From Ilumatobacteraceae bacterium (GTDB lineage: Bacteria > Actinomycetota > Acidimicrobiia > Acidimicrobiales > Ilumatobacteraceae), in contig JAJTFJ010000012.1 in assembly GCA_021298435.1 (NCBI GenBank), positions 1-54,974 on the forward strand: a stretch of DNA of 54,974 nucleotides, in the 5' to 3' direction. The notes below the pieces were generated by a model. It worked only from the letters and a program-made list of their open reading frames with translations, did no database searches and was not told the DNA's origin. The position numbers were made by a program, and so were the translations under genes. Each line of letters opens with the position of its first letter. Position 1 is the first letter of the stretch. Below, one piece after another: positions 29,643-51,408 of this stretch.

Positions 29643-29693
29643 ACTGCTTGTACACAGTAACTGTGCTTTTGGTTACTGCTTGTACGCAGTAAC
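29643..29693. repeat. 19-bp near-identical direct repeat, partly palindromic
   Basis: ACTGCTTGTACACAGTAAC (29643-29661) and the copy at 29675-29693 differ at one base. The second copy contains the last six codons and part of the stop codon of the minus-strand LLM gene, and with one flanking base forms the palindrome GTTACTGC-N6-GCAGTAAC. The first copy lies in the gap between two convergent genes. Confidence 0.7.
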
Positions 29694-30710
29694 AATTGGT
29701 GCGAGTTCGGTGGGTGTGGCGCCGTGCATGATGACGCCGTCACAACCCAGCGCAAACTGATGACGAATAGCGGCCACGCATTGCTCGGGTGATCCAGTCG
29801 CTGACGGTGCAAGCCATTCAGATGGAATCAGGGGAGCGACTCGCTCTAAATCTTCCGTCGTTCCCTTGGCATCCAGCGCACCGGGGAATGTGCGAACAAA
29901 CTCATCTTCGCGGAATCGCTTCAATACAGCAGGGTCCCACTTATTGGTACGCACCATGAGGTCGCCGTAGGCCTGCAAGTACGTCGCAAGTCGGCCCACA
30001 GTTTTCTTCAACCGCAATGCAGGGTCGATGTGGTCGCCAATTGTTGCGAAGCATGACCAAACCTTCACTGAATCAGGATCACGGCCGGCTTCTTCGGCCG
30101 ACCGCTTCACTGTTTGCACTGCGCGCTGAGTTGTTGCATCAGTAAAGAATGTGTGCAGAATCACGTTGTCGTATGCGCGTCCTGCCATCTTGAGTGTTTG
30201 ATCACCGAACACCGTGATGCTGAGGGGGATGTCGAGACGGAAGTCAGGGTCAAGGCGTAACACGGGGTAGGTGCCGGTGATGTCGGTGTGGCCCAACACG
30301 GTCTCGCCATTCCATAAGCGACGCATGAGGAGAGCGAATTGCTCCATGGACTCAGTGGTGGCCATCGGCATGCCGTACGCCTTGAACATGGCTTCGATGC
30401 CGCGACCCAAGCCAAGGCTGAAGCGGCCTTCTGACAACAAATGCAACGTGCTGGCCCAGGATGCCGTGACAAGTGGGTGACGCGTGGTGTGGTTGGTGGC
30501 GGCAGTGATGACGTTGATGGTGCTGGTGGCAGCGACCGCAGCACCGGTGAGGGCTCCCGCTTCCTTGATATTGAAACGCTCTGAGATGAAGGCCGTGCCG
30601 AGCCCTAGTTCTTCGGCATGTGCGAGTTCGCCCAGCATGTCGCGTGGCGACTTCGGTGCCCCAGCCAATGTGTAGAAGCCAAGTTCGGGGTGGGCGGGTG
30701 TTGCGCTCAT
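29673..30710 (-). CDS. LLM-class oxidoreductase, probably F420-dependent (TIGR03857-like)
   Basis: 345 aa, luciferase-like TIM barrel. Motifs: GFYTLAGAPKSPRDM at the N-terminus, TNHTTRHPLVTASWASTLHLLSEGR and RFSLGLGRGIEAM, typical of actinobacterial F420-dependent LLM enzymes. The reaction cannot be predicted. The ATG has TACTCT 6 nt upstream. Convergent with the TauD-like gene; its 3' end overlaps a 19-bp repeat. Confidence 0.85.
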   Translation of the reverse strand: MSATPAHPELGFYTLAGAPKSPRDMLGELAHAEELGLGTAFISERFNIKEAGALTGAAVAATSTINVITAATNHTTRHPLVTASWASTLHLLSEGRFSLGLGRGIEAMFKAYGMPMATTESMEQFALLMRRLWNGETVLGHTDITGTYPVLRLDPDFRLDIPLSITVFGDQTLKMAGRAYDNVILHTFFTDATTQRAVQTVKRSAEEAGRDPDSVKVWSCFATIGDHIDPALRLKKTVGRLATYLQAYGDLMVRTNKWDPAVLKRFREDEFVRTFPGALDAKGTTEDLERVAPLIPSEWLAPSATGSPEQCVAAIRHQFALGCDGVIMHGATPTELAPIVTAYKQ

Positions 30711-41949: not shown

Positions 41950-42003
41950 TGTGGCACTAATGAATGTTGAGAGCGAGCGTGGAAGAATAAAGAAGTGACA
42001 ACG

Positions 42004-42588
42004 ATGCATCCGACAAAGGCACTTCTTCTTGAGACCGCAGTTTCATTGATTGATGAGTTTGGGCCTCAGGGCTTCACAGTAGAGACATTGTTAGAGACAT
42101 CAAAGATCTCAAAAGGATCTTTGTACCACCACTTTCACGACTTCTCTGACGTGATCGAGCAAGCGCAGGTCGCACGTTTCTCTCGGTATGTCGACGAAGA
42201 CATTGCGCTACTCGTTGACTTGTTACGTTCATCGACATCTCGAGAAGACCTTCAAAAGAAGTTTGCACTCATCGTGCAAGGTGCCGGAATGCCGGGTCGT
42301 GAAGTAGCACGGGCTGATCGTGCAGCAATTCTGGGCATGGCGCGTCATTCAAAAAAGTTCGCAGAAGGACTTGCTGTGGAGCAGCAGCGCGTCACTGATG
42401 TCCTTGCGGATATTGCTCGCGAGATGCAAGAACGAGGCTGGATCAACAAGGATATTGATGGAGCTGTCGTCGCAACATTTGTTCAGGCGTACTCCATGGG
42501 ATTCGTACTCAATGACAACACCACGAATCCAATTTCGATTGAGCAGTGGAGCTCATTCATTTCAATGATGTTGTCGAAAATTCTGTAA
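42004..42588 (+). CDS. TetR-family transcriptional regulator
   Basis: 194 aa. HTH TSKISKGSLYHHFHDF near residues 35-50; the C-terminal ligand domain has ADRAAILGMARHSKKFAEGLA and FVQAYSMGF. ATG at 42004, or GTG at 41995, with a GGAAGAA/AAAGAAG stretch upstream. It is a paralogue of the TetR at 21615: same LYHHF-x-DF motif, same N-terminal HPT, same C-terminal pattern. Divergent from the VIT transporter, a candidate target. Confidence 0.9.
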   Translation: MHPTKALLLETAVSLIDEFGPQGFTVETLLETSKISKGSLYHHFHDFSDVIEQAQVARFSRYVDEDIALLVDLLRSSTSREDLQKKFALIVQGAGMPGREVARADRAAILGMARHSKKFAEGLAVEQQRVTDVLADIAREMQERGWINKDIDGAVVATFVQAYSMGFVLNDNTTNPISIEQWSSFISMMLSKIL

Positions 42589-42628: not shown

Positions 42629-43732
42629 TTACAACGGGAGTGGGCCGTGATGAAGGTGCGGCAACACAAGTTCTGCGAATCGTTTCGCTTCATCAACGTG
42701 CGGGTACCCAGAAAAGATGAATGCTTCGATTCCTAGTGCTTGGTAACGCTGAATCTTCTCAATCACTTGTTGTGGTGTTCCGACAATTGCTGCGCCACAG
42801 CCAGAGCGTGCTTTGCCGATACCTGTCCATAACGACGGCTCAATGAATCCGTCCTCGTGTGCTGCAGCACGCAATTCGGCTTGTCGTTGCACACCGATGC
42901 TGGTGCTATCGAGAGATTTCGCCCTGATGGCATCGCCCGTTGCTTCATCGACTGCAGAGATGAGATACGCCGCGGCATTGCGCGCTTCATCTTCTGTTTC
43001 GCGTACGACAACGTGCACGCGATACCCAAACTTGATGGTGCGGTTGTGTCGTGCCGCACGTTCTCTCATGTCTGAAATGATGAGCGAAATCTGCTCTTCT
43101 GTGTCGGGCCACATGAGGTACACATCAGCATCCATAGCTGCGGTTTCGCGTGCTTCGTTGCTGAGTCCGCCGAAGTAGAACGCCGGAGCAGGGGCAGTGG
43201 CTTTGCAAATGCGGGGCGCATCAACATGGAGCGAGATGAATTCGCCATCCATCTCGAGTCGTTCACCGTTCATCAAGGTGCGTAATGCACGCATTGTTTC
43301 TGTTGTGCGTCGATAGCGGTGCGGACCATCAAGAGTCTCGCCAGGCATCTCTGACGAGATGATGTTGATGACAAGTCGGCCATTGAGAACTTGATTGAGC
43401 GTCGCTAGCTGTCGCGCAAGTTGCGGTACCCAGTTTTCTCCCACGCGAACAGCTGTCAGCATTTTCATTCGCTCAATCTGCGGCGCAATCGACGACGCAA
43501 ACGAGAGTGTGTCGATACCGAGGTCGTAGCCCGAGGGGAGAAGAATGTTGTCGAAACCGAGGCGGTCAACAGTGGTTGCGATATCGGAGCAGTGCGCCCA
43601 ACTGCTCGCTAGATCAGCCTTCGGAACACCCAGTTGTTCGTAGTCATCGTCACAGAGAGCGCCGAACCATGAGACTTCAATTGGCGAAATCTCAAACGGC
43701 GACATCTCGCTTGCTGAATTCGATTGGCTCAT
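42629..43732 (-). CDS. FMNH2-dependent monooxygenase, SsuD-like LLM family
   Basis: 367 aa. Closely follows SsuD along its length: WFGALCDDD at the start, DRLGFDNILLPSGYD, NGRLVINIISS, FYFGGLSNEARETAA, IKFGYRVHVVVRE (Arg and His of the SsuD active site, near residues 235-240), and FSGYPHVDEA with the catalytic-site Tyr. SsuD cleaves C-S bonds of sulfonates with O2 and FMNH2 to give sulfite and an aldehyde. The ATG overlaps the aldo-keto reductase stop by 4 nt. No flavin reductase lies nearby. The sulfonate substrate is inferred. Confidence 0.87.
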   Translation of the reverse strand: MSQSNSASEMSPFEISPIEVSWFGALCDDDYEQLGVPKADLASSWAHCSDIATTVDRLGFDNILLPSGYDLGIDTLSFASSIAPQIERMKMLTAVRVGENWVPQLARQLATLNQVLNGRLVINIISSEMPGETLDGPHRYRRTTETMRALRTLMNGERLEMDGEFISLHVDAPRICKATAPAPAFYFGGLSNEARETAAMDADVYLMWPDTEEQISLIISDMRERAARHNRTIKFGYRVHVVVRETEDEARNAAAYLISAVDEATGDAIRAKSLDSTSIGVQRQAELRAAAHEDGFIEPSLWTGIGKARSGCGAAIVGTPQQVIEKIQRYQALGIEAFIFSGYPHVDEAKRFAELVLPHLHHGPLPL

Positions 43733-44658
43733 GGAAGCGGAACACCCTCGCTGGCTTGCACAATGCGATACCAGTCGGTGCGGCTGAGTTGCACGGCTGT
43801 TGCCTTTGCAAGTTCTTGCAAACGTTCTGGCTGAGTACTGCCGAGAATCGCAATGGGCTTTGATGGATGGGCCAAAACAAATGCAACCGCAATGGCAGAA
43901 CGTGTGACGTTCTCGCGTGCAGCAAGTTCATCAATAACTGTCAACAATTCAGCAGGAACTCCTTCACCGGTTGCAAGGCGACCTCCTGCCAAGGGGCTCC
44001 ACGCCATCGGTGTAATCGCAGCTTCCATGCACAAGTCAAGAGTGCCGTCTCGAAGTGGTTCGAGGTGTGCAGCAGAGAACTGTGGTTGCGTTGTCGCTAA
44101 GCCAGAGTCGAGGAAACCATTCAGTGCGAGTGTTTGAGGCACGGTGTAGTTAGAGACGCCAAACTCTTTCACCAACCCACGAGTGCGCAACGAAGTGAAT
44201 GCTGCAGCAACTTCTTCGGGGTGCGTGAGCATGTCAGGGCGATGAACTTGGTAGAGGTCAATAGTGTCCACATTCATGCGACGTAGTGACGCTTCACATG
44301 CGGCGACGAGATAGTCGCCAGAGGAGTCGTAGGGAACGCCAGGGATGATGCCGCCCTTTGTAGCGAGCACGACCCTGTCTCGAAGACCTGGCACGGCGGC
44401 AAAGACACGAGCGAGTGCTTCCTCGCATGCACCAAAATGTGTACCACCCCAGTCGAGGCCATACACATCTGCGTTGTCGATGAGATTCATGCCGAGATCG
44501 ACAGCGGTCGTCACTGTGGCGATGTTGTCATCATCTGAACCAGTGAGGCGCCAGCACCCGAGCGAGAGAGGTCCGACAGAGCCAAGACTGCTGAGATCTC
44601 GATCGCCAGAAACGTCGAGAGGTGTATTCGGCGCAGCAGGAATCTTGAGATCAGACAT
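43729..44658 (-). CDS. aldo/keto reductase
   Basis: 309 aa NAD(P)H-dependent AKR, TIM barrel. Catalytic tetrad visible: Asp and Tyr in LIDNADVYG, Lys in VVLATKGG, His in DLYQVHRPD. The cofactor region near the C-terminus reads LGSTQPERLQE. TAACCT lies 6 nt before the ATG. Coupled by a 4-nt overlap to the SsuD-like gene, so it may reduce the aldehyde made there. Confidence 0.9.
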   Translation of the reverse strand: MSDLKIPAAPNTPLDVSGDRDLSSLGSVGPLSLGCWRLTGSDDDNIATVTTAVDLGMNLIDNADVYGLDWGGTHFGACEEALARVFAAVPGLRDRVVLATKGGIIPGVPYDSSGDYLVAACEASLRRMNVDTIDLYQVHRPDMLTHPEEVAAAFTSLRTRGLVKEFGVSNYTVPQTLALNGFLDSGLATTQPQFSAAHLEPLRDGTLDLCMEAAITPMAWSPLAGGRLATGEGVPAELLTVIDELAARENVTRSAIAVAFVLAHPSKPIAILGSTQPERLQELAKATAVQLSRTDWYRIVQASEGVPLP

Positions 44659-44664
44659 AGTGCG

Positions 44665-44670
44665 AGGTTA
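44665..44670 (-). promoter_or_regulatory. -10 box of the aldo/keto reductase gene
   Basis: TAACCT on the minus strand, then 6 nt, then the ATG at 44658. It would start an internal transcript within the four-gene oxidoreductase cluster. Confidence 0.4.
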
Positions 44671-44678
44671 GTGAAGTG

Positions 44679-45059
44679 TCAGTCGATTCGTTCGAAACGG
44701 GTGACGCGATGAATTCCCATATGGGATTCTTCATGAAGGGCTCGAACTAGTTGGATGGGGTGTGGGAACCGTGAATCGAAGAGGGCTTGCAGCTCTTGCT
44801 GGAATGCGGTATCGCCGACTGCATCCCATTCTTCTTGGGTATCCCAGACAAACACCAGTGTGACTTCACCTGGCTTTGAATCGTCCAGCCACACTTCTTT
44901 TGACAAAAAAGGAATTCTGCTGAGGCTGGGCATCAGGGCTTCGCCCAAAGTCCACACTTCATGGTCAACTGTGATGAATTCATCGACCACCGCAGGATCC
45001 ATCTGGAAGATCAAGACTTCAACAGGACGGCGTTCTCCGTTGACGTATGAGTAATTCAT
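44679..45059 (-). CDS. TIGR03792-like small protein of unknown function
   Basis: 126 aa. The pattern VLIFQMDPAVVDEFITVDHEVWTL, then SKEVWLDD...EVTLVFVWDTQEEWDAV, resembles the TIGR03792 family, a dimeric alpha/beta-barrel-like group with no assigned function. No signal peptide. The ATG overlaps the stop of the alpha-hydroxyacid oxidase gene by 4 nt, and the AKR gene starts 20 nt downstream. Confidence 0.65.
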   Translation of the reverse strand: MNYSYVNGERRPVEVLIFQMDPAVVDEFITVDHEVWTLGEALMPSLSRIPFLSKEVWLDDSKPGEVTLVFVWDTQEEWDAVGDTAFQQELQALFDSRFPHPIQLVRALHEESHMGIHRVTRFERID

Positions 45060-46279
45060 TGATGAGAGACCGTGCGGATAAGAGATGGGCCGATTTCTGC
45101 AATGGTGCGCACACCTGCGAGGGACATGGTGCGTCGCATTTCTGAATCCAACATCGAAAAGGCTCTCTCAACTCCCGCTTCGCCAGCGGCACCGAGGCCA
45201 TAGAGATATGAGCGACCCATGGTGCAGACCGATGCACCAAGAGCAAGTGCTTTCACGATGTCTCCACCGCGACGAATGCCACCGTCACAAATAATGGGGA
45301 GTGCACCCTGTGTGGCGTGGACAACAGGCGCAATGAGGTCGATCGGTGCAGGGGCGCCATCGAGTTGCCGTCCGCCATGGTTGGAAAGCGCAATTGCATC
45401 GACACCATGTGTCAACGCCAGTTGAGCATCATCGACTGATTGCACGCCCTTGAGAATGATGTGCCCTTTCCATCGTTCACGGAACCATGCGATGTCATCC
45501 CAAGACAACGCGGGGTCGAACTGTTCAGAGATGAAGTCGGACAATGTGACGGCAGTGCCGACGGCGCGACCAGCAGCCCCGCTGATATTGGCAAAGGTGA
45601 TGGGGTCGTGGCGCACAAAGTCCCATGTCCATGACGGATGTGTGATGCCATCGATCAGTGTTCCTGGTCCGAGTTTTGGCGGAAGAGTGAAACCGCGACG
45701 GACATCTCGTTCGCGACGACCAAGAACAGCTGTATCAACAGTGAGCATGATGGCTTCGTAGCCGAGTGATTCCGCGCGAGTGAGCATGTCGTGGACCAAT
45801 GCGCGGTCTTTCCATACATACACCTGGAACCATTTCGGACCATTGCTGACAGCAGCAACTTCTTCGATTGATCGAGTCGACAACGTTGAGAGGCAATACG
45901 GCAACTGATGAGCAGCTGCGACGCGTGCAACAGCAAGCTCGCCTTGTGAATGTGCGATGCGTGTGAAACCAGTGGGAGAAAAGATAAGGGGAGATGGAAG
46001 TGTTCGACCCAGAAGTGTTGTGCTGGTATCAATGTTTGAGACGTCGCGAAGAATGCGAGGCACAAATTCATAGCGTTGGTACGCGTCTCGATTGCGGTGC
46101 AGGCTGACTTCGTCTTCGGCGCCACCATCGATGTAGTCAAAGATGCCGCCCGGTAGTCGGCGCTTGGCAATCAGCCGCAGGTCATCAATATTGGCAGCAC
46201 GGTCAAAACGTCGCTTCCGAGCAGACAGGGTGGGACGCGCGAAACTTGCAACTGATTGCAGTGTTCGAAGTAATCCCAT
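45056..46279 (-). CDS. FMN-dependent alpha-hydroxy-acid dehydrogenase/oxidase (LldD-like)
   Basis: 407 aa. Oxidises L-lactate, glycolate or similar 2-hydroxyacids. Motifs: IFDYIDGGAEDEVSL, FSPTGFTRIAHSQGE, FQVYVWKD, the FMN Lys in HIILKGVQS, catalytic His/Arg in LSNHGGRQLDG, and CDGGIRRGGDIVKALALGA. The ATG at 46279 follows a strong ribosome-binding site (AAAGGGAGA), ruling out 46303. First gene of a four-gene minus-strand cluster. MftD-type mycofactocin enzymes are homologous, but no mycofactocin genes are seen here. Confidence 0.9.
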   Translation of the reverse strand: MGLLRTLQSVASFARPTLSARKRRFDRAANIDDLRLIAKRRLPGGIFDYIDGGAEDEVSLHRNRDAYQRYEFVPRILRDVSNIDTSTTLLGRTLPSPLIFSPTGFTRIAHSQGELAVARVAAAHQLPYCLSTLSTRSIEEVAAVSNGPKWFQVYVWKDRALVHDMLTRAESLGYEAIMLTVDTAVLGRRERDVRRGFTLPPKLGPGTLIDGITHPSWTWDFVRHDPITFANISGAAGRAVGTAVTLSDFISEQFDPALSWDDIAWFRERWKGHIILKGVQSVDDAQLALTHGVDAIALSNHGGRQLDGAPAPIDLIAPVVHATQGALPIICDGGIRRGGDIVKALALGASVCTMGRSYLYGLGAAGEAGVERAFSMLDSEMRRTMSLAGVRTIAEIGPSLIRTVSHQ

Positions 46280-46367: not shown

Positions 46368-48065
46368 GTGGCTTTTCCTTCGGATCTTGATATCGCGCAA
46401 GCGGCACACCTTCTACCAATCGCCGACATTGCGGCTCAGATGGGTTTATTGCCAGACCACCTAGAGATGTACGGCCGCAACGTGGCAAAGATTGACCTCG
46501 ATGCAGTGGGAGACATCACTTCTCAGCCCAAAGGGAAATACGTCGTGGTCACGGCGATTACGCCGACCCCCTTGGGAGAGGGGAAGACCACAACTTCTGT
46601 TGGGCTTGCACAGGCAATGAAGCATGTAGGCAAACGTGGACTTCTTGCGTTGCGCCAACCTTCAATGGGCCCCACATTTGGAATTAAGGGTGGAGCTGCC
46701 GGTGGCGGATACAGCCAAGTGGTGCCGATGGAGAACTTAAACCTTCATCTCACTGGTGACTTTCATGCAGTGACCGCAGCGCACAACTTGTTGGCTGCAA
46801 TGGTGGATAACCATTTACATCACGGCAATGCACTGGGTCTTGCTCTGAAGAAAATCACATGGCGTCGTGTTTTAGATGTGAATGACCGTGCCTTGCGCAA
46901 CATGGTGATTGGTATGGGAGGCAATGAGGACGGTGTTGTCCGTCAATCTGGTTTTGACATCACAGCCGCATCTGAGGTCATGGCTATTTTGGCGCTTGCT
47001 AATGACGCGAACGATCTTCGCGCCCGGCTTGGCCGCATTGTGGTGGGGTACACCAATGATGATGTAGCTGTGACAGCTGAACAGATTGGTTGTGCGGGCG
47101 CTATGGCTGTCATCTTGCGTGATGCCGTGAAGCCGAACTTGATGCAGACCTTGGAGAACACTCCCGCGGTCATCCATGCAGGTCCCTTTGGCAATATTGC
47201 CACGGGCAACTCTTCGGTGATAGCCGACAAGTTAGGTATTCATCTCTGTGACTACTTGATTACTGAAGCAGGCTTTGGTGCGGACATGGGTGCTGAACGT
47301 TTCTTCAATATCAAGTGTCGAGTATCGGGTATGACGCCCGATGCCGCTGTTCTTGTTGCCACGGTGCGCGCACTGAAAGCTCATTCTGGCCAATACAGAG
47401 TGGTTGCTGGCAAGCCATTGCCGCCGGACATGTTGAAAGAGAATCCGGATGATGTTCGTGCTGGTGCTGCCAACTTGGTCAAGCAAATCGAGAACGTAAA
47501 GGCACATGGCGTGTCTCCTGTTGTTGCGATTAATGCATTCCCAGGGGACTTTGCTTCAGAACACGAAGTGATTCGTGAGATTGCAGAATCAGTTGGAGCT
47601 CGTGTTGCCGTATGTTCGCACTTCTCTGATGGCGGTGCAGGGGCTGTCGATCTTGCGAATGCAGTGATTGAGGCGTGCGAAGAACCCAGCAACTTTGCAT
47701 TGTTGTATCCCGATGACGCCTCATTGAAGGAAAAGATCGAAAAGATTGCGACCTCTATCTATGGTGCAGCGAAAGTGGAGTACAGCGCCGAAGCGAATCG
47801 TCAACTGGCGATGTATGAGGCAAATGGTTTTGGCGTGTTGCCCATCTGTGTCGCAAAGACCCATTTGAGTATCAGTGGTGATGCATCTCTCAAGGGTGCT
47901 CCGACTGGGCACACATTGTCGGTGCGCGAAGTCCGCGCCTCTGTGGGGGCTGGCTTTGTGTATCCCATTTGCGGCGACATGCGCACGATGCCGGGACTGG
48001 GTGCACACCCTGCAGCAATCAGTATCGATATCGGCCCCGACGGCCGTGTTGTGGGCTTGTTCTAG
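46368..48065 (+). CDS. fhs: formate--tetrahydrofolate ligase
   Basis: 565 aa. Makes 10-formyl-THF from formate, THF and ATP. P-loop PTPLGEGKTTT near residue 65, RQPSMGPTFGIKGGAAGGGYSQV, and NLHLTGDFHAVTAAHNLL are diagnostic. Slightly above the usual ~555 aa. GTG start at 46368; no Shine-Dalgarno is seen. Its stop directly abuts the stop of the convergent LLM gene. Confidence 0.96.
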   Translation: MAFPSDLDIAQAAHLLPIADIAAQMGLLPDHLEMYGRNVAKIDLDAVGDITSQPKGKYVVVTAITPTPLGEGKTTTSVGLAQAMKHVGKRGLLALRQPSMGPTFGIKGGAAGGGYSQVVPMENLNLHLTGDFHAVTAAHNLLAAMVDNHLHHGNALGLALKKITWRRVLDVNDRALRNMVIGMGGNEDGVVRQSGFDITAASEVMAILALANDANDLRARLGRIVVGYTNDDVAVTAEQIGCAGAMAVILRDAVKPNLMQTLENTPAVIHAGPFGNIATGNSSVIADKLGIHLCDYLITEAGFGADMGAERFFNIKCRVSGMTPDAAVLVATVRALKAHSGQYRVVAGKPLPPDMLKENPDDVRAGAANLVKQIENVKAHGVSPVVAINAFPGDFASEHEVIREIAESVGARVAVCSHFSDGGAGAVDLANAVIEACEEPSNFALLYPDDASLKEKIEKIATSIYGAAKVEYSAEANRQLAMYEANGFGVLPICVAKTHLSISGDASLKGAPTGHTLSVREVRASVGAGFVYPICGDMRTMPGLGAHPAAISIDIGPDGRVVGLF

Positions 48066-49010
48066 TTACTTGCCGCGAAGTGCGGCAACGATTGGTGCGC
48101 ACTCATCAATGTTTTCGCCGCCCACGATGGTGTAACTAAAGCCCCAACGCTCACGACGCTCAAGCAATTGCTCGATGCATGAGTCCACCGAACCGATGAG
48201 AGCGAATGGTGACGCGTCGATCATTTCTTTCGACACGCCAAACATCGATGAGATGCCTTCAACAGTTTTTGCGCGGTCGTCAGTGACCTTGACAAAGAAG
48301 GTGCGAATGTTCATCTCGATGTCATTGAGTCGGTGTGCTCCAGCAGCAGCAACGATGGCAACCTTCTCATCAACCGACTCTGCAGTCATTGTCGACAATG
48401 CTTCTGGGCCAACGACGCCAGCGGTGAGTGTGCCGTTGATGCCAATGATGTCGGCCTCGCGCGCTGCATAACTGAGGACGCGCTTACCGCCACCACCGAT
48501 GAGAACTGGAGGAAGTGGCTTCTGCACCGGCTTTGGGTGACCGTCGTAATTGGTAATCGTGTAGTGCTCGCCTTGGAACGAGAATGGACCTTCTGCCATT
48601 GCTCCACGAATGATGGCCATGCCTTCGATGAAGCGATCGATGCGTACCTTCGGAGAGTCGTAGGGAATTCCCGATTGGTCGTAGTCGCTAATCATCCAAC
48701 CGGCACCCATGCCGATTTCGGTACGACCATCAGAAAGAACATCAAGAGTTGCAAGTTCCTTCGCCATGATGAGCGGATGCTTGTAGTCGTTGTCAAACAC
48801 CAATGCACCAACGCGCAAGGTGGTGGTGGCAGAAGCAGCAGCCATGAGCGCTGGCATCGGAGCTAACTGATCAGTGAAGTGATCCGGCATTGTGAGAACG
48901 TCGTATCCGGCGCCTTCTGCGCGACGAGCAAGTTCTGCCCAGCCTTTTGCTGTTGCTTCTTTACTGACTTGGACACCGAAACGGAATGGGCGATGAGGGA
49001 ATTGCGACAT
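48066..49010 (-). CDS. LLM-class F420-dependent oxidoreductase (TIGR03621-like)
   Basis: 314 aa luciferase-like barrel: FRFGVQVSKEATAKGW, YDVLTMPDHFTDQLAP, EIGMGAGWMISDYDQSGI, PPVLIGGGGKRVLSYAAREADIIG. The pattern matches actinobacterial F420 enzymes of the TIGR03621 type. The start MSQFPHR at 49010 is fixed by TACGGT lying 6 nt upstream; the in-frame extension to 49145 overlaps the divergent penicillin-binding protein gene. Confidence 0.88.
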   Translation of the reverse strand: MSQFPHRPFRFGVQVSKEATAKGWAELARRAEGAGYDVLTMPDHFTDQLAPMPALMAAASATTTLRVGALVFDNDYKHPLIMAKELATLDVLSDGRTEIGMGAGWMISDYDQSGIPYDSPKVRIDRFIEGMAIIRGAMAEGPFSFQGEHYTITNYDGHPKPVQKPLPPVLIGGGGKRVLSYAAREADIIGINGTLTAGVVGPEALSTMTAESVDEKVAIVAAAGAHRLNDIEMNIRTFFVKVTDDRAKTVEGISSMFGVSKEMIDASPFALIGSVDSCIEQLLERRERWGFSYTIVGGENIDECAPIVAALRGK

Positions 49011-49016
49011 AAGGCA

Positions 49017-49022
49017 ACCGTA
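49017..49022 (-). promoter_or_regulatory. -10 box of the LLM gene at 49010
   Basis: TACGGT on the minus strand, then 6 nt, then the ATG; no Shine-Dalgarno. Confidence 0.5.
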
Positions 49023-49032
49023 CCAATGAGTC

Positions 49033-51408
49033 ATGTTGGGAAGTGGTGACGCAGGGCCAATAGCGGTGGCAAGTACGGTGGAAATTGCTGTGAATGACTC
49101 ATCCCGCAAGAAAAGAGCCCATTGGGCAATGCGACTGGGCATCACACTGCTCGCCGGGGCCTTGCTGATGACAGCCGGAATCGTAGGTGCGGCTCCTCAT
49201 GTGTGGAAGATGGCCAACGCCCACGAAGAAACCCCGGTGAAGTTGCCTGGGTTTATCGGACTATCGAACCGCACCAAGATGCTCGACTCCGCTGGGCAAC
49301 AAGTGGGCGTCTTTGAATTCGAGAACAGCCAACCCATTGCGATCGATCAAGTACCCCCGCATGTTGTTGCAACATTTTTGGCTGTGGAAGACAGCAGTTT
49401 TGAAAAGCACAAAGGCGTGAACCTTCGTGCTTTGGTGCGTGCGACTCTTTCTAACTTTCAATACTCAACAGGGCGTCAGGGTGCCTCCACCATCACCCAA
49501 CAAGTAGTGAAGAACGAATACCTCGCCGGACTTCCACGAGATGGCCGATACAAGATTCTGCAAGCGCGCTATGCCGTGATGCTCGAAAAGACGACACCGA
49601 AGAAGGCAATTGTGGAGAGATATCTCAACACGGTGTTCTTCGGCAACAATGCGTATGGCATCCAAGCGGCCTCAGAGGTCTACTTCGGTAAGAAGGTGGC
49701 TGAACTCTCTGTTGCTGAATCGGCATTTCTCGTTGGTCTCGTGCAGGCACCGTCGTCCTATGACCCCATCAACCGCCCAGTGGCATCAAAGCGTCGCTTC
49801 AACCAAGTCATTGATCGATTGGTGCAGGTGAACTTGGTGACGAAGGAAGAGGGCGCGGACCTACAGGCTGAAACTGGTTTCCAAGTACCCGAGACAAAAC
49901 GTGAAGTGCCTCAACAGGGAACAAACCGCACGTACTTCACTGAGATGGTGCGTGACCACCTGCTGAACAAGTCGACGATTCTTGGTGCGACATACCAAGA
50001 ACGATTCAACATGCTGTATCGCGGTGGCATCACCGTGACGACAACACTTGATGCAAAAGCGCAAGCGCAAGCAGAGGAAGCCGCAAAGAAGAATCTTCCT
50101 GCCAACAAAACTGGTATCCAATCATCCATGGTGTCGGTCGATACCGCCACTGGCGCATTACGAGCACTTGTGGGTGGACCCGGCTTTGTCGCAGGCCGAA
50201 CAGAAGTGAACCTCGCGCTGCGACGTCGTCAAACGGGTTCAACGATCAAGATGTTTGTTCTCACGGCAGCACTGGAAGCGGGTGTGCAAGCAAGCGACAT
50301 CATTGACGGCACATTGCCGTGCACATTGCCGAACCCTGGTCTTCCTGAAGAACCGTTCAAGATCACAAAGGGAGTCAGTAACCCCGTTGCGACGCTTGAA
50401 GCACAGACGTATTTGTCGATTAACTGCGCATATGCACGTTTGGCGCAGATTGTCGGGCTGAATCGCGTGGTAAACACGATGTACAGAGTTGCGTCATCGA
50501 GTTATCTCACACGAGAGAACTACAAGATTCAGCCGTATGCAAGTTTCTCCACCGGTGCGAATGAATTCAGCCCATTTGACATTGCATCAGGTGCACAGAC
50601 TGTGGCGAACGGTGGAATTCACCACGAGCCGTACTTCATTGAAAAAGTAGAAGGCCCCAGTGGGGTGTTGTATCAACATCAACTGGCTCCACAGCAGGTG
50701 ATCTCGAAAGAAGTTGCTGATGCTGAAGTTGACATTCTGAAAAAGACAATGACGTTAGGAACTGCTCGTCGTACTCCATTGGCGAACAATCGACCTTCGG
50801 CAGGTAAGACCGGTACGCAAGATGAAAACACCAATGCATGGTTTGTTGGCTTTACAAAGCAGTTGACAACGGCTGTGTGGGTGGGTGATCCGAAGGGGTA
50901 CACGCCAATGGTGAACATTCCTGAGTTCAGGGCTGATGGTGTTGCGCGAGTAACAGGCAATACGTATCCGGTGAGAATTTGGAAAGCGTTTATGGACGCA
51001 GCTCACAAAGATCTGCCCAACGTTGACTGGGATGCTCCGCCAAAGCCCACACGTAATCCGATGCGTCTGTATCTGCCGGGACTTGACTGCATCGCCGACT
51101 TGGTCTCGGGCAAATTGCCGCGCACAGCGACGGGTCCGGTCATCACAGTGGTGCCAAGCGTGACTACAACCACGGTGCCAGTACCTGTGACTGCTGCTCC
51201 TCCAACAGTGACAACGATTCCTGCTGCACCAGTCATCGCTCCGACCACCACGGTGTTTAAAGGCCCGATTGTGCGAGTGGTGGACCCCGGTACGACGATC
51301 GCGCCAACAGATCTCAATCCATTGACCCCCATCGTGGGCGTGGACCCATTACGCACTTTTGTGTACAGCTGTGCAAAGGGTCTCCCAGCATCCGTGCGCG
51401 CGGGCTAG
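49033..51408 (+). CDS. class A penicillin-binding protein (transglycosylase/transpeptidase)
   Basis: 791 aa bifunctional peptidoglycan synthase. A short basic cytoplasmic N-terminus and one membrane helix (~residues 33-55) precede the glycosyltransferase domain (VEDSSFEKHKGVN with catalytic Glu; GASTITQQVVKNEYL). The transpeptidase domain has GSTIKMF (active Ser), SINCA and AGKTGT. A Thr/Pro/Val-rich tail of about 90 residues (VTTTTVPVPVTAAPPT...) follows. The start may instead be the GTG at 49090, which has TACGGT 10 nt before it. Divergent from the LLM gene. Confidence 0.93.
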   Translation: MLGSGDAGPIAVASTVEIAVNDSSRKKRAHWAMRLGITLLAGALLMTAGIVGAAPHVWKMANAHEETPVKLPGFIGLSNRTKMLDSAGQQVGVFEFENSQPIAIDQVPPHVVATFLAVEDSSFEKHKGVNLRALVRATLSNFQYSTGRQGASTITQQVVKNEYLAGLPRDGRYKILQARYAVMLEKTTPKKAIVERYLNTVFFGNNAYGIQAASEVYFGKKVAELSVAESAFLVGLVQAPSSYDPINRPVASKRRFNQVIDRLVQVNLVTKEEGADLQAETGFQVPETKREVPQQGTNRTYFTEMVRDHLLNKSTILGATYQERFNMLYRGGITVTTTLDAKAQAQAEEAAKKNLPANKTGIQSSMVSVDTATGALRALVGGPGFVAGRTEVNLALRRRQTGSTIKMFVLTAALEAGVQASDIIDGTLPCTLPNPGLPEEPFKITKGVSNPVATLEAQTYLSINCAYARLAQIVGLNRVVNTMYRVASSSYLTRENYKIQPYASFSTGANEFSPFDIASGAQTVANGGIHHEPYFIEKVEGPSGVLYQHQLAPQQVISKEVADAEVDILKKTMTLGTARRTPLANNRPSAGKTGTQDENTNAWFVGFTKQLTTAVWVGDPKGYTPMVNIPEFRADGVARVTGNTYPVRIWKAFMDAAHKDLPNVDWDAPPKPTRNPMRLYLPGLDCIADLVSGKLPRTATGPVITVVPSVTTTTVPVPVTAAPPTVTTIPAAPVIAPTTTVFKGPIVRVVDPGTTIAPTDLNPLTPIVGVDPLRTFVYSCAKGLPASVRAG

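Follow-up and report, generated by a model that had tools for sequence, protein, structure and literature searches.

A putative sulfoquinovose monooxygenase and aldo-keto reductase pair in a conserved operon of the Ilumatobacteraceae

In contig JAJTFJ010000012.1 of an Ilumatobacteraceae bacterium (Actinomycetota; Acidimicrobiia; assembly GCA_021298435.1), four consecutive genes place an FMNH2-dependent monooxygenase next to an aldo-keto reductase (AKR). The whole stretch of DNA that we analyzed, 54,974 nucleotides, is referred to as the window. An earlier note on this DNA, made from its sequence alone, had proposed a possible undescribed organosulfonate or C-S cleavage module. Our analysis favors a system that is already described: the monooxygenase/AKR core very probably represents the known sulfoquinovose monooxygenase pathway (sulfo-SMO, also sulfo-ASMO), here in Acidimicrobiia, and we dropped the new module because the pathway is already known. 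Sulfoquinovose (SQ) is the sugar found in the sulfolipids of plants and algae.

The four open reading frames (ORFs) that the earlier note had described, with overlaps of 4 nt at two of their three junctions, are all present on the minus strand at 42629-46279. In the 5'-3' order of the genes, the junctions measure -4 nt, +20 nt (the gap between the TIGR03792 and AKR genes), and -4 nt.

45056..46279, minus strand: LldD-like FMN-dependent L-2-hydroxyacid oxidase/dehydrogenase (LldD/glycolate oxidase family), 407 aa; FMN_dh PF01070, 475 bits; role unproven
45056..45059, minus strand: 4-nt overlap of the LldD-like stop and the TIGR03792 start
44679..45059, minus strand: TIGR03792 family protein, 126 aa, predicted antibiotic-monooxygenase-like dimeric alpha/beta barrel; TIGR03792 model; role unproven
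43729..44658, minus strand: AKR, 309 aa, putative SquF/SmoB role (6-dehydroglucose to glucose); Aldo_ket_red PF00248
43729..43732, minus strand: 4-nt overlap of the AKR stop and the monooxygenase start
42629..43732, minus strand: FMNH2-dependent monooxygenase, 367 aa, predicted SQ monooxygenase (SMO) type (SmoC/SquD); Bac_luciferase PF00296, phmmer, trees

Results

Identity of the monooxygenase

The monooxygenase scored 271.9 bits with the SsuD equivalog model TIGR03565, well below the cut-off of 518.2 that marks membership in SsuD. A phmmer search of the PDB returned 7olf (354 bits) and 7oh2 (349 bits) ahead of MsuD (7jv3, 234 bits) and SsuD (1m41, 214 bits). According to their entry titles, 7olf and 7oh2 are FMNH2-dependent monooxygenases for the 'oxidative desulfurization of sulfoquinovose' and 7jv3 is MsuD; the label 'methanesulfonate sulfonatase' that the PDB search attached to 7olf is overruled by the titles, which name the SQ enzyme. 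In a maximum-likelihood tree of 71 sequences, a branch with 100/100 support parted five SsuD/MsuD sequences and two SsuD-like sequences from Streptomyces from the window enzyme and all SMO sequences. This tree was derived from a first tree of 91 sequences by removal of five long-branch sequences and 15 near-copies, and SsuD and MsuD were likewise separate from the window enzyme in the first tree, in which the long branches were included. Membership in SsuD/MsuD was ruled out by the missed cut-off and the tree placement, and by sequence the enzyme falls in the SmoC/SquD clade of SQ monooxygenases. The nearest plasmid-borne enzymes, from Novosphingobium, Sphingobium, Sphingomonas, and Rhizobium, are about 60% identical to it.

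The AlphaFold2 model of the monooxygenase has a predicted local distance difference test score (pLDDT) of 84.9, and fold alignment gave identities of 46-47% to 7oh2/7olf and 36-39% to SsuD/MsuD. Residues W208, R238, H240, Y343, and H345 are the same in each of the 20 sequences aligned; they are common to SMO and SsuD, and therefore do not fix the substrate. Models of the F420 subfamilies gave no more than 53 bits, compared with 272 from the SsuD model, which ruled out an F420-dependent luciferase-like monooxygenase (LLM). The earlier note would have counted a grouping with non-sulfonate LLM enzymes against its proposal; of the few such sequences tested, none groups with the window enzyme.

The AKR partner and conservation of the operon

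For comparison, we used 53 named loci that carry a relative of the monooxygenase, with gene presence counted by tblastn. In 48 of these, the AKR gene immediately precedes the monooxygenase gene on the same strand, as it does in 45 of the 49 that extend at least 900 bases upstream; in the four exceptions among the 49, a gene of glycoside hydrolase family 188 (GH188), convergent with the monooxygenase gene, takes its place. A start codon is available at the -4 offset in 46 of the 48 relatives. The operon is real and conserved, and more than a chance arrangement. The full four-gene order recurs in 14 of the 53 loci and is thus not unique to the genome of the window, a point on which the earlier note had staked its proposal. 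The AKR-monooxygenase order with its 4-nt overlap was also found in Sphingomonas paeninsulae and Sphingobium yanoikuyae.

The window AKR is closest to the AKRs that adjoin SMO-like genes in four Sphingomonadaceae loci (42-46% identity) and is 32% identical to 7bby, which we take to be SmoB (32-35% across YdhF and 7bby); an AKR encoded next to an SMO gene of Rhizobium matches 7bby at 80% identity. Residues D61, Y66, K101, and H139 presumably form the AKR catalytic tetrad. Among 11 plasmid loci examined, the AKR adjoins the SMO-like gene in seven; it does not in L089, L174, and L175, and the remaining one, L173, is an msuE-ssuD locus. The related gene of N. pentaromativorans has an annotated alpha-glucosidase, an AKR, a TonB receptor, and a glycerol kinase as neighbors, and that of a Sphingobium relative has a GH188 gene, an AKR, a major facilitator superfamily transporter, a sulfatase, and a sulfate exporter. 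The comparison with SmoC/SmoB (SquD/SquF), already drawn in the earlier note, is therefore borne out by phylogeny, sequence, operon structure, and neighboring genes. A published survey counts SmoB and SmoC within 10 ORFs of each other as a sulfo-SMO cluster (PMC13372026); the window pair qualifies on adjacency. In Novosphingobium EMRT-2 (L088), glucuronate-catabolism genes adjoin the pair.

Sulfoquinovosidase genes of the GH188 type

A Gfo/Idh/MocA-type gene that recurs beside the pair has 8qc3 and 8qc2 as its best PDB matches. These are structures of the NAD-dependent sulfoquinovosidase SqgA, the founder of GH188 as set out in the article text (Kaur 2023, PMC10755693). Of the 53 named loci, 19 include a GH188 gene. 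The genome of the window carries one on another contig, at approximately G000:C24:10814-11902 (position computed from L086), so the statement of the earlier note that a sulfoquinovosidase is missing does not hold genome-wide. The encoded protein is 57% identical to that of L061, has SqgA (8qc2, 348 bits) as its best PDB match, and keeps all eight catalytic or SQ-binding residues tested: K107, Y136, R166, L170, K172, E189, H193, and H321. The numbering was fitted to the article text of PMC10755693, in which R166/L170/K172 form the sulfonate triad. All eight are present in 26 of 27 proteins aligned with 8qc2, the exception, L053, being cut off by a contig end. The genome thus has a predicted, unlinked sulfoquinovosidase with all of the tested GH188 residues.

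Across 121 genomes of the family, GH188 was detected in 63 of the 66 that have the monooxygenase, versus 21 of the 55 that do not; these 21, of which seven are of genus g6, would suggest a different SQ route or a different use. Among the genomes sampled, five have the four-gene order (G000, G070, G093, G104, and G115), and each of them carries GH188, on another contig or far off.

In L148 and L153, the GH188 and monooxygenase genes share a 4-nt overlap, and another gene follows. The L148 copy of this following gene belongs to PF03601 (Cons_hypoth698), which we take to be a sulfate exporter, the name also used in plasmid annotations, and its presence there fits a release of sulfite. In the genome of the window, the GH188 gene has a large sulfatase gene (PF00884) and a kinase-like gene (PF02958) as its neighbors (L091:7614-12662, G000:C24), with no recognized SQ pathway genes. 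An aldehyde-dehydrogenase-like gene overlaps or flanks GH188 in L082:3620-5011, L074, L079, and L154-L156, some of them beside the SMO pair (PF00171 in L154, 40 bits); our guess is that it could oxidize 6-dehydroglucose.

Flavin reductase and transporter genes

As the earlier note had reported, neither a flavin reductase nor a transporter is linked at the locus. The genome has three PF03358 matches, all unlinked, of which one is SsuE-like at 44 bits against a cut-off of 164; this SsuE-like FMN reductase gene sits near ftsEX/menB genes. Known sulfo-SMO clusters include some without a linked flavin reductase, such as that of N. aromaticivorans as described in the review text (PMC9594981), and a linked reductase is for this reason not required. 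The strongest match to a sugar ATP-binding cassette (ABC) ATPase that the genome offers is part of a polyamine-type operon. No sulfonate transporter was recognized among 40 neighbor proteins in a Pfam scan, a dedicated search not having been made.

The LldD-like and TIGR03792 genes

The LldD-like protein reaches PF01070 and has lactate and glycolate oxidases as its best PDB matches, but scored only 308 bits with the L-lactate dehydrogenase (LldD) model NF033901 (cut-off 550), so that its 2-hydroxyacid substrate is not fixed. Its gene most likely starts at ATG 46279, with AGGGAG five bases ahead; GTG 46303 is also in frame, and a divergent ORF begins at 46368. The TIGR03792 protein scored 65.8 bits with its family model (cut-off 45.75). 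Its AlphaFold2 structure, built from 15 sequences, reached a best pLDDT of 81.2 (65-81 in five models) and aligned to 1iuj in VIA-align with a Z score of 10.3 and a root-mean-square deviation of 2.7 over 98 residues. An antibiotic-monooxygenase-like alpha/beta barrel is thus predicted, a shared fold that does not in itself show a function. A PDB sequence search with this protein gave no informative match, and no literature on TIGR03792 was found among open-licence papers.

Across the 53 named loci, the two genes are present either together, in the 14 with the four-gene order, or not at all; in all 14 they share an overlap of 1 or 4 nt, and their junction to the AKR is an overlap in ten and a gap of 20-21 nt in four. 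Because of this joint presence, the overlaps, and the AKR junctions, the LldD-like and TIGR03792 genes are true operon members in this lineage and a lineage-specific addition. Just outside the 10-sequence clade of the window, L046 also has the four-gene order. Among the family genomes, LldD homologs (E <= 1e-90) were found in 36 of the 66 with the monooxygenase and 17 of the 55 without, and TIGR03792 homologs (E <= 1e-6) in 24 and 6, or 21 and 5 once four weak matches are removed. These counts, unsorted for relatedness, point to some association of both with the monooxygenase.

A regulator gene is convergent with the operon.

41995..42588, plus strand: TetR-family regulator (PF00440), a neighbor of the operon

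A TetR gene is present in 10 of the 53 loci. In L164 (G058:C126, 1557-6371), from the same genus, the flanking genes are unchanged but enclose TIGR03792 only, with the LldD-like, AKR, and monooxygenase genes absent; the locus is a natural near-empty site, in which the TetR gene also adjoins TIGR03792.

Discussion

We propose that an unlinked GH188 NAD-dependent sulfoquinovosidase would free SQ from sulfolipid glycosides. The SmoC/SquD-type monooxygenase, with FMNH2 and O2, would then cleave the C-S bond of SQ to give sulfite and 6-dehydroglucose, which the AKR would reduce to glucose; reduced flavin would be supplied by an unlinked NAD(P)H:FMN reductase. Like the sulfo-SMO systems of Agrobacterium (SmoC/SmoB) and Novosphingobium aromaticivorans (SquD/SquF), the window has an FMNH2-dependent monooxygenase of the SMO clade beside an AKR; gene order and overlap are as in Sphingomonas paeninsulae and Sphingobium, and the genome contains a GH188 gene. 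The window differs in belonging to Actinomycetota, in lacking a linked flavin reductase, transporter, LacI/GntR regulator, and sulfoquinovosidase, in its two extra upstream genes, and in the distance of its AKR from 7bby. The GH188 homolog matches SqgA (PMC10755693) in all of the tested residues but is unlinked, beside the sulfatase and kinase-like genes. With SsuD/MsuD, the monooxygenase shares the fold and the five invariant residues, but it lies on the opposite side of the fully supported branch, with lower identity.

Several observations weigh against this assignment. The 91-sequence tree gave no supported join of the crystallized SMO type with the clade of the window, and among 63 columns that discriminate SMO from SsuD/MsuD (five sequences against five), the window enzyme is SMO-like in 30, SsuD/MsuD-like in 14, and like neither in 19. 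Given this split and its position in the tree, the monooxygenase belongs on the SMO side but is no close copy of the crystallized enzymes. Fold comparison fails to part SMO from MsuD (Z 41.0 versus 40.9). The window itself contains no GH188 gene, and none of the five sampled genomes that share the four-gene order has one linked to it, so that its use with this pair is a matter of inference; the 121 genomes are related, and the co-occurrence of GH188 with the monooxygenase does not amount to 121 independent events; and the 21 genomes that have GH188 alone suggest that it may also serve something else. A search for PF01613 flavin reductases found none in our assembly, which is 76.5% complete, but did find one in 13 of 14 control genomes. 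No transporter for SQ or sulfoquinovosyl glycerol (SQGro) was seen at the locus or identified in a genome-wide search for sugar-ABC ATPases. The SQ chemistry is published for the enzyme family and would extend to these proteins by sequence similarity.

The pair might instead desulfonate other or broader sulfonates, such as alkane- or methanesulfonate, for sulfur supply in the manner of SsuD/MsuD, with the AKR detoxifying the aldehyde. The reaction family is the same, the five invariant residues are common to both enzyme types, and the 14 SsuD/MsuD-like columns are in keeping with such a role; the separate clade, the shortfall in the TIGR03565 score, the linkage and co-occurrence of GH188, and the Pfam scan, in which no sulfonate transporter appeared, argue against it, and we consider it quite unlikely. 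An F420-dependent or other general operon of LLM oxidoreductases, with no link to sulfonates, would suit a 1.5-Mb assembly that has 22 Bac_luciferase matches, 21 of them above the cut-off, but given the F420 scores, the tree, and the PDB matches we find this barely credible. Two more Bac_luciferase-family genes lie in the window itself, at 29673-30710 and 48066-49145.

A further alternative leaves the SQ core as it is and concerns the two extra genes only: all four genes would belong to a single modified pathway for SQ or another sulfonate, with the LldD-like and TIGR03792 proteins catalyzing steps, for example on a 2-hydroxyacid such as sulfolactate, or supporting flavin supply. The consistent pairing of these genes, their overlaps in every locus that has them, and the presence of both in L046 speak for such a pathway. 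On the other side, 39 of the 53 loci show no extra genes (although some contigs are short), TIGR03792 stands alone in L164 and occurs in different neighborhoods in five contexts from other genera (L159-L163), and LldD homologs are also found in family genomes that lack the monooxygenase; we therefore regard this alternative as unlikely. A more specific version, in which the TIGR03792 protein and the oxidase handle flavin, 6-dehydroglucose, or a hydroxyacid by-product within a four-protein SQ unit whose monooxygenase runs without a dedicated flavin reductase, strikes us as rather improbable. Returning to the sulfo-SMO core, the likeliest account of the two extra genes is co-expression by accretion, with a working role possible; they are probably co-expressed for other phytoplankton products, such as glycolate or lactate, and not as a step of SQ breakdown.

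According to reviews of 2022 (PMC9594981) and 2026 (PMC12890257), the sulfo-SMO pathway is found largely or mainly among alpha- and beta-proteobacteria. A survey from June 2026 reports frequent sulfo-SMO clusters in Actinomycetota at the level of the phylum; its main text does not name Ilumatobacteraceae, and these very genomes may be in its tables (PMC13372026). Among open-licence papers, we found nothing relevant that links sulfoquinovose with Ilumatobacter or with Acidimicrobiia and its kindred names, nor, among the papers listed by wider searches, anything on this family and SQ. The monooxygenase is present in 66 of 121 sampled genomes of the family and, at E <= 1e-95, in 18 of 396 sampled Actinomycetota genomes: seven in the family, nine in other families of the order, one elsewhere in the class, and one elsewhere in the phylum. 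The titles of the named relatives are mostly Ilumatobacteraceae, Acidimicrobiaceae/-iales, or plain Actinomycetota, and isolate names such as Baikal and LacPavin suggest a freshwater habitat for the lineage. SQ production is put at about ten billion tons a year in the text of PMC10755693. Our analysis places the genes of a candidate pathway, one by one, in an Acidimicrobiia family known mostly from metagenome assemblies, several of them of 1.5-2 Mb, and yields a testable claim on who mineralizes algal sulfolipid in fresh water, while the TIGR03792 and LldD families gain a concrete genetic context.

Five loci have titles that look wrong: L033, L036, L068 and L048, L069 are titled Bifidobacterium breve and Acidobacteria, respectively, yet in the 91-sequence tree are nested among loci titled Ilumatobacteraceae or Acidimicrobiaceae. 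A DUF3237 gene, absent in the window, is found in 11 of the 53 loci (for example L037:8066-8494), between the monooxygenase and TetR genes where both were mapped. In a related lineage, a cytochrome P450 gene directly follows the monooxygenase gene (L048:5423-6670, PF00067), with homologs at L050:8051-9280 and L078:2055-3302.

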